From Pannonibacter carbonis (GTDB lineage: Bacteria; Pseudomonadota; Alphaproteobacteria; Rhizobiales; Stappiaceae), in the NCBI RefSeq assembly GCF_003012935.1, contig NZ_PUDR01000019.1:1-64000 (forward strand): a stretch of DNA of 64,000 bases, given 5' to 3'. The notes under the pieces were generated by a model. It had not been told where the DNA came from, did no database searches, and worked only from the letters and a program-made list of their open reading frames with translations. The first letter of the stretch is position 1, and each line of letters opens with the position of its first letter. The position numbers were made by a program, and so were the translations under genes. Shown here piece by piece: positions 38,776-46,336 of the stretch.

Positions 38776-39425
38776 TCCTGGCGCTCCTCAATCAGAAAGG
38801 CGGCGTCGGCAAAACCACGTTGGCGCTTAACCTCGCCGGTGAATGGGCTCGGCAAGGACATCGCGTCACGCTGATCGACGCCGACCCGCAGGGCTCGGCG
38901 CTCGACTGGTCGCAGCAGCGCAGCCGCGAAGGCCTGCCGCGCCTGTTCGGGGTGATCGGCCTGGCGCGCGACACGCTGCACCGCGAAGCCCCCGAGCTAG
39001 CGCGAGATGCGGACTACGTCGTGATCGACGGGCCGCCTCGTGTCGCCAGCCTGATGCGTTCGGCGCTCCTTACCGCCGACCTGGTGTTGATCCCGGTGCA
39101 GCCATCACCTCTCGATGGCTGGGCCTCCGCCGAGATGCTGTCGCTCTTCACCGAGGCGCGCATCTATCGGCCGGAGTTGGTCGCCCGTTTCGTGCTCAAC
39201 CGCTGCGCCTCGCGCACGGTGATGGCGCGCGAGACAGCCGAAATGCTTGCCGACCACGATCCGCAAGCGCTCGCAAGCGCTATCGGGCAACGCATCGGCT
39301 TTGCAGCGGCCGCGCAGTCCGGGCGGCTTGTCGCTGAACTCGACGACGACACGCTCGCAGCGCGCGAGATCACCGCGCTGGCCGGCGAGATCGACCGGCT
39401 TCGCATCGGGAGGACTGCGCGATGA
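38772..39425 (+). CDS. parA: ParA-family partition ATPase
   Basis: 217 aa. Deviant Walker A KGGVGKTT (residues 9-16), TLIDADPQGSALDW, and YVVIDGPPRVASLM as Walker B. Small ParA (type Ib-like) that segregates replicons with a small partner. The next gene, a short ribbon-helix-helix-like protein, overlaps it by 4 bp and is the likely partner, not the distant large ParB. Confidence 0.9.
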   Translation: MILALLNQKGGVGKTTLALNLAGEWARQGHRVTLIDADPQGSALDWSQQRSREGLPRLFGVIGLARDTLHREAPELARDADYVVIDGPPRVASLMRSALLTADLVLIPVQPSPLDGWASAEMLSLFTEARIYRPELVARFVLNRCASRTVMARETAEMLADHDPQALASAIGQRIGFAAAAQSGRLVAELDDDTLAAREITALAGEIDRLRIGRTAR

Positions 39426-39673
39426 GCGAGCGTCCCACCCGTCGTGGATTCGCCGCCCGGCCAGCAGATCCCGAACATTGGATCAAGGCCGCCGATGCCG
39501 CGCCGCGATCCAACGAGGCTGGCGCGTTCAGCGCGCGTCTCACTATCGATGTGACGCCCGACCTTCGCGCCCGGATCAAGGTCGCCGCGTTTCGGCGCGG
39601 CGTCACGGTCGCCGAAGCCTTGCGCGAATTGCTCACGCGCGAATTCCCACCGAACCCAGGAGACCCCTCATGA
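39422..39673 (+). CDS. small ribbon-helix-helix-like partner of ParA
   Basis: 83 aa, ATGA overlaps at both ends. C-terminal RHH-like segment (SARLTIDVTPDLRARIKVAAFRRGVTVAEALRELL) after a disordered N-terminus. Fits a ParG/ParB-like centromere-binding protein encoded after a small ParA; inferred from position and fold pattern. Confidence 0.75.
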   Translation: MSERPTRRGFAARPADPEHWIKAADAAPRSNEAGAFSARLTIDVTPDLRARIKVAAFRRGVTVAEALRELLTREFPPNPGDPS

Positions 39674-41876: not shown

Positions 41877-41960
41877 GCGCGGTAGTTCCCAATCGCACGA
41901 TAGCGGGCGCTGGCGTATTCCAGAGAGCGCAGAGGTGGAGCACAGGCAACACGACCGAAG

Positions 41961-42062
41961 GATGGCAGGATAAAAGGCCGCGAGGTGCGGCTTGTTGCGG
42001 TCGTGTTGTTTCAAGGAGTTATGGCGCATTTTCGCGAGGCGCGCGGGTTTCCCGCACCTCGC
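41961..42062 (-). other. candidate origin of transfer (oriT) with IncP-type nic
   Basis: On the minus strand, 41972-41965 reads TATCCTGC, the IncP/P-type nic core (cut after G). Next to it is an 11-bp inverted repeat gcgaggtgcgg (41980-41990) / ccgcacctcgc (42052-42062), with another imperfect hairpin gcgagg...cctcgc ending at the same place. It lies in the 244-bp gap just upstream of the relaxase gene, the usual place for oriT. No gene seen in the gap. Confidence 0.55.
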
Positions 42063-42120
42063 AACCATACCCATTTCCTTATGATTTCCTGCACTTGGCG
42101 CGATGTGCGGGGTCTCGGCT

Positions 42121-43860
42121 ATGACCGACGACACCGAGTTTCGCATCCGGCCTGGCCGCATTCGCTCCTCCGGCGCACAGCGCGCGCGACCCTTCATCGC
42201 GCAGGCGCTCGCCGCCGCGAAGAAGGCCGGCGCCGGCGTTTCACGCTCGGGCCGGATCGTTGCCGGCAACCGCTCACGCTTCGGGCGCGGCCAGCGTGCC
42301 AGCATCCAGGCCAATCGTTTCATCACCGCGCGCTCGCGCGGCGCCGTGATCAAGGCGCGCGTGGTGCGCCACAGCCCCCGTTCCGCGCCACTCGTCACCC
42401 ATCTCAATTACCTGCGCCGCGAGGGCGTCACCCGAGACGGAGAAAAGGCAAGGCTGTTCGGTCCTGGCGTGGACGACGCCGATCCAAAAGCCTTCGCGGA
42501 GCGAAGTGAGGGAGATCGTCATCACTTCCGCTTCATCCTCTCGCCCGACGACGCGGCGGAGATGGCGGACCTCAAGTCTTTCACCCGCGATCTGGTCAGC
42601 CAGATGGAAAGGGATCTGGACACAAGCCTGGACTGGGTGGCCGTCGATCACTGGAACACCGAGCACCCGCATGTCCACCTGATCGTTCGGGGGGTCCGTG
42701 ACGACGGGCAGGATCTCGTCATCTCCCGCGACTACATCAAAGACGGAATGCGCGACCGCGCGCGCGACCTCATCACCCAGGAACTCGGCCCCCGCACCGA
42801 TCTCGACATCCGCCGCACACTGGACCGCCAGGTCGATGCCGAACGCTGGACCCAGCTCGATCGCCAGCTTGTCCGCGATGCGCGCGATACCGGCGTCATC
42901 GACCTCGCGCCACGGCCGAGCGAACAACCGGAAGTCTATCACGCCCAAAAGGTCGGCCGCCTGCGCAAACTCGAAGCCCTCGGGCTTGCCGACCAAGTCG
43001 GCCCCGGCCAGTGGGTAATCGACGAGAAGGCCGAGGCGACCTTGCGCGAGCTGGGGACGCGCGGCGACGTCATCAAGCGAATGCACCGGGCGCTCACCGA
43101 ACACGGCATCGAGCGGGGTTCGGCGAGCTACGTTCTCGCCGCCGAGAGCCTCGACACCCCGATCATCGGCCGGCTGGTGACACGTGGTCTTGATGACGAA
43201 CTGAACGGCACGGCCTATGCCGTCGTCGATGGCGTCGATGGGCGTGCTCATCACATCAGGTTTCCGGATCTCGATGCGGCTGGCGACAGCGCGCCGGGCT
43301 CGATCGTCGAGCTGCGCAAGTTCGACGACGCGCAAGGTCAGCGTCGGATGGCGCTCGCAGTTCGTTCCGATCTCGCCATCGCCGACCAGATCACCGCGTC
43401 GGGCGCGACCTGGCTCGATCGCCAAAACATCGCGCGTGAACCCGTCGCGCTCTCCGACAGCGGCTTCGGCGCCGAGGTGCGGCAGGCGATGGAACAGCGC
43501 GCCGAGCACCTGATCGAACAGGGCTTCGCAGAGAAGCACGGCCAGCGCGTCACCTTCGCGCGCAACTTGATCGACACGCTGCGCGCCCGCGAACTGGAGG
43601 CGCTGGGCGAGAAGCTCGCCGCCGAGACCGGCCAGCCCTTCAATCGCGCAGGCCCTGGCGAATATGTCGCCGGTTCCTATCGCCAGCGCTTCACGCTCGC
43701 CTCCGGTCGCTTCGCCATGATCGATGACGGCCTCGGCTTCCAGCTCGTGCCCTGGACACCCTCCCTCGAAAAGCAACTCGGCCGCCATGTCTCCGGCGTC
43801 GCTCGCGACGACGGCGGCATCGGCTGGAGCTTTGGCCGCAAGCGCGGCCTCGGCCTCTGA
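42121..43860 (+). CDS. relaxase / mobilization nuclease with DUF3363 domain
   Basis: 579 aa from ATG at 42121. The relaxase part contains HHFRFILSPDDA and the metal-binding histidine motif HWNTEHPHVHL (about 177-187), related to VirD2-like P-type relaxases; the DUF3363 region follows (YVLAAESLDTPIIGRLVTRGLDDELNGTAYAVVDG). Nicks oriT and leads the strand into the recipient. The N-terminus is very basic. Next gene is the coupling protein. Confidence 0.88.
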   Translation: MTDDTEFRIRPGRIRSSGAQRARPFIAQALAAAKKAGAGVSRSGRIVAGNRSRFGRGQRASIQANRFITARSRGAVIKARVVRHSPRSAPLVTHLNYLRREGVTRDGEKARLFGPGVDDADPKAFAERSEGDRHHFRFILSPDDAAEMADLKSFTRDLVSQMERDLDTSLDWVAVDHWNTEHPHVHLIVRGVRDDGQDLVISRDYIKDGMRDRARDLITQELGPRTDLDIRRTLDRQVDAERWTQLDRQLVRDARDTGVIDLAPRPSEQPEVYHAQKVGRLRKLEALGLADQVGPGQWVIDEKAEATLRELGTRGDVIKRMHRALTEHGIERGSASYVLAAESLDTPIIGRLVTRGLDDELNGTAYAVVDGVDGRAHHIRFPDLDAAGDSAPGSIVELRKFDDAQGQRRMALAVRSDLAIADQITASGATWLDRQNIAREPVALSDSGFGAEVRQAMEQRAEHLIEQGFAEKHGQRVTFARNLIDTLRARELEALGEKLAAETGQPFNRAGPGEYVAGSYRQRFTLASGRFAMIDDGLGFQLVPWTPSLEKQLGRHVSGVARDDGGIGWSFGRKRGLGL

Positions 43861-43887
43861 CCCACCATTGCAGACAAGGAATTGCCC

Positions 43888-45876
43888 ATGCCCGCCACCA
43901 AGATTCTCTGGGGCCAGATCATCTCCGTTCTCTCCATCGTCCTCATCTGCGTCTGGGGGGCGACCGAATGGGTGGCCTGGCGGCTCGGGTTTCAGCCTGA
44001 ATTGGGCGCGCCATGGTTCCGGCTGTTCGGCTTCCCGATCTACCTGCCGCCATCCTTCTTCTGGTGGTGGTATGGCTATGACGCCTATGCGCCACAGGTC
44101 TTCGTCGAAGGCGCCTATATCGCAGCGTCCGGAGGCTTCATCGCCGTGGCCGTCGCTATCGGCATGTCGGTCTGGCGCGCGCGGGAGGCGAAGAAGGTCG
44201 AGACCTACGGTTCAGCCCGCTGGGCCGAGGCGGAGGAAGTGAAGTCGGCCGGTTTGCTTGGCCCGGATGGCGTCGTGCTCGGCCGCTACGACAGCCACTA
44301 TCTTCGTCACGACGGCCCGGAGCATGTTTTGTGTTTCGCGCCGACGCGCTCCGGCAAGGGCGTCGGCCTGGTCGTGCCGTCGCTGCTGACATGGCCGGGA
44401 TCGGCGATCGTCCATGACATCAAAGGCGAGAACTGGCAGCTCACCGCTGGCTTTCGTGCCCAGCATGGGCGCGTGCTGCTGTTTGATCCGACCAACGCCA
44501 AATCCTCAGCCTATAATCCGTTGCTCGAGGTGCGCCGCGGCGAATGGGAGGTTCGAGACGTCCAGAACATCGCCGACATCCTGGTCGATCCCGAAGGCAG
44601 CCTCGAGAAGCGGAACCATTGGGAGAAAACCAGCCATGCGCTGCTGGTCGGCGCGATCCTCCACGTCCTCTATGCCGAAGCGGACAAGACGCTCGCCGGC
44701 GTCGCGGCCTTCCTCTCAGATCCGAAGCGACCGATCGAATCCACACTCGCGGCGATGATGACGACGGCGCATCTCGGCGAAGCCGGGCCGCATCCGGTGA
44801 TCGCATCGGCGGCGCGCGAACTGCTCAACAAGTCGGACAACGAACGGTCGGGCGTGCTGTCGACCGCCATGTCCTTCCTCGGCCTCTACCGCGATCCCGT
44901 TGTCGCCGAGGTGACGCGCCGCTGCGATTGGCGGATTGGCGACGTCGTGGGTGGAAAGCACCCGACGACGCTCTATCTTGTCGTGCCGCCGTCCGACATC
45001 AACCGCACGAAGCCGCTGATCCGCCTGATCCTCAACCAGGTCGGCCGCCGCCTGACCGAGGATCTCCAGGCGAAAGCCGGCCGTCATCGGCTTCTCCTGA
45101 TGCTCGACGAGTTTCCCGCGCTGGGGCGGCTCGATTTCTTCGAGAGCGCGCTCGCCTTCATGGCGGGCTATGGCCTCAAGAGCTTCCTGATCGCGCAGTC
45201 GCTGAACCAGATCGAGAAGGCGTATGGCGCCAACAACTCGATCCTCGACAATTGCCATGTCCGCGTCAGTTTCGCGACCAATGACGAGCGAACGGCCAAG
45301 CGCGTGTCGGATGCGCTCGGCACCGCCACCGAGATGAAGGCGATGAAAAACTATGCCGGACACCGTCTGTCGCCCTGGCTCGGGCACCTGATGGTGTCGC
45401 GCTCTGAGACCGCTCGTCCGCTCCTCACCCCCGGGGAGGTCATGCAGCTTGCGCCCTCCGACGAAATCGTCATGGCTGCCGGCACCCCGCCGATCCGCGC
45501 GAGGAAGGCACGCTATTACGAGGATGCACGCTTCGTTGAACGCATCCTGCCGCCGCCTTCGCTTGCCGCGCCGAAGCAGGTCCGGCCCGATGACTGGACC
45601 ACGCTGCCGTTGCCGCCACGCCCACAGATCGTCGGCGCCAACCAAGCGGCAAAAGCCGCCGATGACGATCCGACCGAATCCGAGCGCCGCCAACAGCCCG
45701 AACTCAACCGGGTGAAGCCGGTCGAGAAGCCGATGCCGATCGACAACCCGTTCGAGATCGACGCAGACCGGGACGAGGCCGAGGATGAAGCCGCGCGCAA
45801 CAGCCGGATGAACCGCATCATGCAGGGCGTGGCGCGTCAGGTGTCACTCGATCCAGGCGACGGCATGGACCTGTGA
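43888..45876 (+). CDS. traG: conjugal transfer coupling protein TraG/VirD4
   Basis: 662 aa from ATG at 43888 (aagga upstream). Two N-terminal membrane segments (ISVLSIVLICVWGATEWVAW and AASGGFIAVAVAIGMSVW), Walker A FAPTRSGKGVG (near 152) and Walker B LLMLDEFPALGRLDF (near 404), SLNQIEKAYG. Hexameric inner-membrane ATPase that delivers the relaxase-DNA complex to the trb channel. Confidence 0.93.
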   Translation: MPATKILWGQIISVLSIVLICVWGATEWVAWRLGFQPELGAPWFRLFGFPIYLPPSFFWWWYGYDAYAPQVFVEGAYIAASGGFIAVAVAIGMSVWRAREAKKVETYGSARWAEAEEVKSAGLLGPDGVVLGRYDSHYLRHDGPEHVLCFAPTRSGKGVGLVVPSLLTWPGSAIVHDIKGENWQLTAGFRAQHGRVLLFDPTNAKSSAYNPLLEVRRGEWEVRDVQNIADILVDPEGSLEKRNHWEKTSHALLVGAILHVLYAEADKTLAGVAAFLSDPKRPIESTLAAMMTTAHLGEAGPHPVIASAARELLNKSDNERSGVLSTAMSFLGLYRDPVVAEVTRRCDWRIGDVVGGKHPTTLYLVVPPSDINRTKPLIRLILNQVGRRLTEDLQAKAGRHRLLLMLDEFPALGRLDFFESALAFMAGYGLKSFLIAQSLNQIEKAYGANNSILDNCHVRVSFATNDERTAKRVSDALGTATEMKAMKNYAGHRLSPWLGHLMVSRSETARPLLTPGEVMQLAPSDEIVMAAGTPPIRARKARYYEDARFVERILPPPSLAAPKQVRPDDWTTLPLPPRPQIVGANQAAKAADDDPTESERRQQPELNRVKPVEKPMPIDNPFEIDADRDEAEDEAARNSRMNRIMQGVARQVSLDPGDGMDL

Positions 45877-45883
45877 GACACCC

Positions 45884-46336
45884 ATGACAAAATCATCCCG
45901 CAAGCAGCGCCTGTCCGTCTACCTCGATCCAGCGGTCATGAACCGACTGGCCGAACACGCCGCACGGCGCGATCATTCCCGCTCTCTTGTCGCGGAAGCG
46001 GCAATCGAATCCTTTCTCTCGCCCGATGCCGCCGAAAAACAGGAAGCAGCGATCACCAAGCGGCTCGACCAGCTCGATCGTCGCATGACGAGGCTGGAGC
46101 GCGATGTTGGTATCGCCGTGGAAAGCCTCGCGGTGTTCATCAAATACTGGGTCTCGACCATGCCGACACTGCCGGAGCCGGCTGCGCAGGCTGCCCGCGC
46201 GAAGGCGGGCGAACGCTATGATCAGTTCGTCACCGCGCTCGGACGACGCCTGGCCAAGGGGCCTAAGCTGCGGCAGGAAATTTCCGAGGATATGAACGAC
46301 TCGGAGCATCAGGATAGTCGCACGCGCGGCGAATAG
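45884..46336 (+). CDS. CopG/ribbon-helix-helix regulator
   Basis: 150 aa. N-terminal RHH (RKQRLSVYLDPAVMNRLAEHAARRDHSRSLVAEAAIESFL), then a coiled coil (KRLDQLDRRMTRLERDVGIAVESLAVFIK). In Tn4371-like elements the gene between traG and trbB is of this type and may regulate trb; inferred. 7 bp after traG. Confidence 0.82.
   Translation: MTKSSRKQRLSVYLDPAVMNRLAEHAARRDHSRSLVAEAAIESFLSPDAAEKQEAAITKRLDQLDRRMTRLERDVGIAVESLAVFIKYWVSTMPTLPEPAAQAARAKAGERYDQFVTALGRRLAKGPKLRQEISEDMNDSEHQDSRTRGE

Follow-up and report, generated by a model that had tools for sequence, protein, structure and literature searches.

The closest described counterparts of the locus analysed here are the transfer origins (oriTs) of two integrative and conjugative elements (ICEs). 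In ICEKKS102Tn4677 an essential region of 58 bp, mapped by deletion, consists of a conserved 20-bp sequence containing CAAAAGG together with an inverted repeat; the authors place nic within the 20-bp sequence, find that the hairpin sequence can be changed without abolishing transfer (a 24-fold drop), and propose the LysR-type protein TraR as accessory factor, with no ribbon-helix-helix (RHH) repeats described (PMC11448139). The cloned oriT of ICEMlSymR7A, taken from between msi107 and rlxS, is mobilised (PMC11963761). In the literature on this second element (PMC11963761, PMC8627217) we found no assignment of nic or of an accessory factor, and msi031 is without an assigned function. Repeated oriT sites read by RHH proteins are described for the SmpO proteins of the staphylococcal pWBG749 family, where a beta-strand F7K substitution switches specificity and where oriT subtype and backbone phylogeny disagree (PMC8136818).

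The window (the whole 64,000-nucleotide stretch of Pannonibacter carbonis DNA that was analysed) contains a gap that is orthologous to the mapped oriT of ICEKKS102Tn4677 and to the cloned oriT of ICEMlSymR7A. The gene-free region adjoining the DUF3363 relaxase, which the original prediction had noted, was confirmed; it extends from 41877 to 42120, with repA, parA, DUF2840, traF and DUF736 upstream and traG, a CopG-like gene and trbB downstream (Table 1). As in ICEKKS102Tn4677, the gap lies just upstream of a DUF3363-type relaxase in a repA-parA-DUF2840-traF backbone, with an inverted repeat on the relaxase side of the core. Gaps of the Tn4371 type carry GGCAAGACAAAAGG followed by GACGCGG..CCGCGTC, and thus have the same core-plus-hairpin plan as the window; their core reads AAGAC where the window has AGGAT, and no SLT gene is annotated in between in the loci examined. 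The arrangement of oriT-rlxS followed downstream by traG-msi031-trb is shared with ICEMlSymR7A (PMC11963761, PMC8627217), ICEMlSymR7A-type elements have the same gene order as the window (PMC8627217), and the Mesorhizobium relatives have its core.

The RP4/RK2 (IncP-1alpha) oriT, which we compared via pBS228 (a 100% match to the query), contains GGCAGGATA in a form identical to the window, so the nic core TATCCTG^C is common to both. The hairpin is on the same side of nic, and both systems use a Trb transfer apparatus. Beyond the core, however, the sequences are unrelated, and RP4 encodes TraJ and TraK beside its oriT, whereas the candidate factor of the window is encoded between traG and trbB. 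The window has an RP4-like nic region: its TATCCTG^C core adjoins an inverted repeat, and both lie in a gap that borders a relaxase gene. It does not have an IncP oriT, because the gap is flanked by SLT and relaxase genes, not by genes of the TraJ/TraK type. We take the Agrobacterium T-DNA border, at which VirD2 nicks, to begin with TGGCAGGATA, which is shared with the nic of the window; the border is not known to have the hairpin or RHH repeats.

Table 1. Features of the predicted oriT region and its neighbourhood (window coordinates)
Feature	Position	Strand	Remarks
Gene-free gap, predicted oriT region	41877-42120		between SLT transglycosylase gene (end 41876) and rlxS
Outer inverted repeat, left arm	41947-41957		encloses nic and hairpin; 68% paired, weaker away from close relatives
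nic core	41963-41974	-	plus strand TGGCAGGATAAA, minus strand TTTATCCTG^CCA; GGC..GATAAA invariant in 73 aligned relatives
Predicted cut in nic core	between 41966 (G) and 41965 (C)	-	variable dinucleotide is 41967-41968
Hairpin GCCGC-gaggt-GCGGC, 5-bp stem	41977-41991	-	directly 5' of nic on predicted transferred strand; contains S1
Repeat copy S1, GCGAGGTGC, R flavour	41980-41988		offset 0, inside hairpin
Outer inverted repeat, right arm	41998-42008		pairs with 41947-41957
Repeat copy S2, GCGAGGCGC	42034-42042		offset +54; 79/80 loci
Repeat copy S3, GCACCTCGC, inverted	42054-42062		offset +74; 55/80 loci
Repeat copy S4, GCGATGTGC	42100-42108		offset +120; 78/80 loci; just upstream of probable rlxS start
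rlxS, MOBP relaxase	42121-43860	+	HUH nuclease domain, then DUF3363 domain
Predicted catalytic residues of rlxS	Y103, H183/H190/H192		numbering from ATG at 42103
traG/virD4-type coupling protein	43882-45876	+	
CopG-like RHH protein	45884-46336	+	predicted reader of the oriT repeats (Arg9); lies between traG and trbB, where msi031 is placed

The relaxase matches Pfam DUF3363 (6e-92) and Relaxase (1e-5), both over the cut-off, and its nuclease domain is MobA/VirD2-like. The predicted structure of this domain matches TraI, MobA, TrwC and MobM with the HUH relaxase fold (Z 9-12), and H100, Y103, H183, H190 and H192 are invariant in 82 relaxase sequences (numbering shifted by 6); searching solved structures by sequence returned no relative for either the relaxase or the RHH protein. 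Its score against NCBIfam NF041267 (relax_RlxS) is 587 bits, below the curated cut-off of 850, and the protein is best regarded as a relative of RlxS, not RlxS itself. The gene probably starts at 42121 rather than at the ATG at 42103: three relatives have a stop codon between that ATG and the conserved MTxxD, and the RefSeq relaxase genes on pCHQ1 and pBAL398.2 begin at the codon equal to 42121.

Several related records deserve mention. The genome of G000:C5:54970-56916 (L002, L094) has a second relaxase, 41% identical and with a longer DUF3363 protein, and the usual core sequence was not found in the stored flank of that gene. An orphan DUF3363-annotated fragment, equivalent to relaxase residues ~390-583 only at 40% identity, is present in NZ_CP141593.1 and about 2,400 other plasmid records and so occurs on very many enterobacterial plasmids; it is presumably the remnant known beside floR on ISCR2 elements. 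Two 17.9-kb records from one Rhodopseudomonas strain, L182 (NZ_CP133113.1) and NZ_CP133112.1, are ~75-79% identical to the window oriT. L182 is marked linear and holds almost only the conjugation module, and both records are possibly assembly pieces of ICEs rather than plasmids.

The original prediction rested on the 8-mer TATCCTGC, which is indeed present on the minus strand at 41972-41965, as a single copy in the window, and its placing of the cut on that strand between 41966 and 41965 correctly maps the RP4 site TATCCTG^C onto the window. Taken alone the 8-mer is not significant, with a mean of 1.03 copies per window expected from dinucleotide shuffles of the whole window and 27 of 4000 shuffles of the 245-bp gap containing it; its position and the conservation of the core are significant. 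For the comparison, 80 relaxase relatives were fetched, the set 1 loci being picked by similarity to the window relaxase, and ~135 relatives were compared overall. GGCnnGATAAA occurs upstream of the relaxase at one place in 79 of 80 relatives, as TGGC or GGGC followed by two bases and GATAAA, lying between -131 and -155 relative to the relaxase start that was adopted. The exception, L080, appears to carry coding sequence where the core is expected, possibly in a truncated or misassembled gap; L160 and L080 are both close relaxase relatives without a recognisable core upstream. The proposal of an oriT with an RP4-like nic is thus upheld by the core in 79/80 relatives, by the Tn4371-type gap of the same plan and by an orientation that puts the transfer genes last. 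Conservation of the core itself held in part. The flanks GGC..GATAAA are invariant, but GA or GG replaces AG within the 8-mer in 21/80 relatives. In set 1, which has 80 sites when the window is counted with 79 relatives, there are 59 AGG, 20 GAG and 1 GGG alleles, all within the same invariant frame. Across all relatives the variants are AGG (that of the window), GAG, GGG, AAG and CAG. An 8-mer that varies between constant flanks is in part the pattern that had been named as speaking against the original prediction; the variation can be accounted for, however, since it goes with the nuclease domain of the relaxase.

The 11-bp inverted repeat first noted beside nic (GCGAGGTGCGG at 41980-41990 and CCGCACCTCGC at 42052-42062) is present, but it does not form a single nic-adjacent hairpin; its arms correspond to two of four spaced copies of a 9-mer that resembles a protein-binding site. 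A second perfect 11-bp inverted repeat, absent from the original prediction, encloses nic (CAACACGACCG at 41947-41957 and CGGTCGTGTTG at 41998-42008), and two perfect pairs of this length were found in 8 of 4000 gap shuffles. The structural elements of the gap are this outer repeat and the short hairpin beside nic (41977-41991). In the hairpin 89.6% of cells are paired, and one pair is CG instead of GC in 22 of the 73 sequences. We rejected the outer repeat as a conserved paired structure, 68% of its cells being paired and several of its positions unconserved. In the fold of the predicted cut strand (-16.4 kcal/mol as DNA; z -4.2), nic is left unpaired within the outer stem. A promoter scan of the gap found no promoter.

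The 9-mer occurs in three flavours across the relatives, namely R, GCGA(G/T)GTGC, which is that of the window, H, GCACATTGC, and P, GCAC(C/G)GTGC. The offsets 0, +54, +74 and +120 are common to all three, and copies within one gap agree in flavour (378 main against 5 minority copies of 383). For S2 at +54, copies were counted if they differed at no more than 2 bases from the flavour of their locus. S3 is present in 16/39 R, 24/26 H and 15/15 P loci, and is hence poorly conserved in many R elements. A subgroup of loci with relaxases of ~55% identity (L168-L178) has the RHH strand type RDRMNVYFPPE and different repeats, a fourth flavour in addition to the three deciphered here.

Given that S4 abuts the rlxS start, it is a possible operator, and the oriT assignment could be correct with all the 9-mers serving solely as operators at which the RHH protein controls rlxS transcription, without taking part in DNA processing. 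Proteins of the CopG kind are classical repressors, and MobC of RA3 autoregulates its own operon (PMC4175270). We nevertheless consider this reading unlikely. The hairpin adjoining nic is formed by S1, whose distance from nic is constant across the relatives, and in ICEKKS102Tn4677 removal of REPT1 abolishes transfer and removal of REPT2, which corresponds to S2/S3 by position only, cuts it ~100-fold (PMC11448139). The hairpin copy may count more as structure in that element, because the hairpin sequence is changeable there.

The finding that is new is a double dissociation between the two kinds of DNA element. Each is conserved, held in a fixed geometry and co-inherited with one protein: the nic bases track only the nuclease domain of the relaxase, and the 9-mer flavour tracks the RHH protein. 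The trees behind the per-gene counts of flavour and nic changes, and those behind the contrasts, were made with FastTree. The split between AGG and GAG needs 1 change on the tree of relaxase residues 20-250 and 8 on that of residues 300-585, and a test of GAG as a single clade rejects it for the DUF3363 part (p 1e-4) and does not do so for the nuclease domain. At the 67 loci common to all trees, the nic allele changes once on the nuclease-domain tree, 7 times each on the DUF3363-part, TraG and RHH trees, 8 times on that of TraF and 9 times on that of SLT; further gene trees gave 6 (second RHH), 9 (DUF736) and 10 (HTH) changes. Along the relaxase, association with nic is limited to windows within residues 70-250 (AUC 0.86-0.98, elsewhere about 0.5-0.6). 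From this confined association and the tree change counts we conclude that the bases next to the nick have been inherited along with the nuclease domain while the rest of the relaxase gene was exchanged.

Within the nuclease domain, position 80 (G or non-G) matches the middle nic base (G or A) at 133 of 134 loci across both sets, with GGG and AAG/CAG included and two rows gapped at this position scored as not G; the sole exception is L055, with D80 and AGG. The correspondence agrees in 8/8 independent contrasts on the DUF3363-part tree, and the nuclease-domain tree offers only two supported contrasts. Position 80 is therefore put forward as a candidate determinant of the nic base. Other residues were discarded. 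R199, R221 and L193 were perfect in set 1 and broken in set 2, by L148 (AGG with I193, T199 and Q221) and L146 (GAG with R221), and D149/E149 is broken by L022 (GGG with E149).

The protein that tracks the 9-mers is encoded 4 kb from the gap. It matches Pfam RHH_1 over the cut-off (E 3e-4), and its model, an extended N-terminus followed by two helices, matches CopG in complex with DNA (Foldseek probability 0.99, but E about 0.25; rmsd 1.1 across 38 residues). In this structure match position 9 aligns with CopG Arg4, which we take to be a base-contacting residue. On the common 67 loci flavour changes twice on the RHH tree, the minimum for three flavour states, as against 6 times on each of the DUF3363-part and TraG trees, 8 times on that of the nuclease domain, 9 on that of SLT and 11 on that of TraF; the AUC for flavour is 0.87 for the RHH protein and 0.53-0.72 for every other gene. 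The most flavour-informative columns, 9, 5, 10 and 8, lie within or beside the predicted DNA-reading strand. Position 9 is R in 33/33 R loci, Q or P in 22/22 H loci and K in 15/15 P loci. This rule was fixed in writing before a second set of 57 further non-redundant loci was examined, and it held in all 37 of those in which repeat flavour and strand could both be read (107/107 loci overall); 2 of the 37 carry P9, which is in the original list for the H class and is missing from the written prediction line. On the relaxase trees only 2-4 well-supported independent switches are seen for each flavour, all of them concordant, so that the events are few although the loci are many. Flavour is tracked by the RHH protein as a whole and not by residue 9 alone, and residue 9 is the best candidate for the determinant within it. 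Three other potential readers were rejected: the second RHH-like protein, encoded after parA at 39422-39673, with 11 flavour changes, DUF736 with 16 and the HTH protein with 12. The first of these is a small protein with a ribbon-helix-helix-like stretch, a probable ParA partner, and does not track the oriT repeats.

Could the DNA parts and the proteins share their ancestry merely through linkage? The 5' end of the relaxase gene and nic are only ~150 bp apart, and these elements recombine often. Linkage predicts a gradient with distance, however, and none is seen: a gene 4 kb away is a better tracker of flavour than the relaxase and TraG genes in between or the SLT gene ~100 bp away, and nic tracks residues 70-250 and neither the adjoining SLT gene nor the rest of the relaxase. 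Since the nearest genes are the worse trackers, linkage fails to explain the pattern, and we hold this account to be very improbable. The same low standing applies to a reading of the repeats by the DUF3363 domain of the relaxase in place of the RHH protein. This was suggested by our first full-length trees, and the domain is, together with TraG, the second-best tracker (6 flavour changes, AUC 0.72). We rejected it because the RHH protein tracks flavour better, with 2 changes, an AUC of 0.87 and a near-complete column association in its DNA-reading strand, the best DUF3363 column reaching 0.86 bits as against 1.51. A fortuitous 8-mer within a regulatory gap, such as part of a minus-strand terminator (hairpin then CTTTT), is a scarcely credible account of the core: a scan does call the minus-strand hairpin terminator-like and about one copy is expected per window, but GGC..GATAAA is invariant at a fixed position across 73 aligned relatives, no minus-strand gene is known at the site, and orthologous oriTs have been mapped experimentally.

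We conclude that the flagged stretch is very probably an oriT, the place at which a mobile element is nicked. This claim is strong but not new for the family; an oriT beside the relaxase is already known. It is highly likely, judging from the patterns of sequence variation described above, that this is the oriT of an RlxS/Trb-type ICE read by two proteins, the relaxase nuclease domain and the RHH protein, and we propose that the latter would be the missing relaxosome accessory factor. A direct precedent for such RHH reading is the SmpO system, although it belongs to Gram-positive plasmids with another relaxase, and specificity is experimental there and inferred from natural variation here.

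As to nicking, binding, strand direction and autoregulation, we infer the following scheme. The relaxase nuclease domain would cut the minus strand at TATCCTG^C (41966/41965) and stay bound to the 5' end, so that DNA would exit leftwards, to lower coordinates, and the rlxS, traG and trb genes would enter last. RHH dimers would occupy S1 in the hairpin beside nic, S2 and S3 mid-gap, and S4 at the rlxS start. Bound at S1 beside nic, the RHH protein may recruit, load or position the relaxase, and at S4 it may give feedback control of rlxS. More tentatively, and with somewhat less than even confidence, we suggest a two-protein code in which relaxase position 80 (G or non-G, at the start of the first nuclease strand) might determine which base, C or T, the cut strand has three positions 5' of the nick, RHH position 9 (R, Q/P or K) might set the flavour of the 9-mers, and the modules might recombine separately.

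The ICE family concerned is very widespread in alphaproteobacteria, where it carries symbiosis and catabolic genes; one scan gave at least 590 relaxase relatives, and the count for genomes of the window's order was 59/397. A candidate accessory protein, its predicted sites and possible specificity residues for both proteins can now be named, and the question of which element of the family can mobilise which oriT becomes testable by single substitutions. If the proposed code is true, two residues could be enough to predict whether the oriTs of Trb-type ICEs are compatible.
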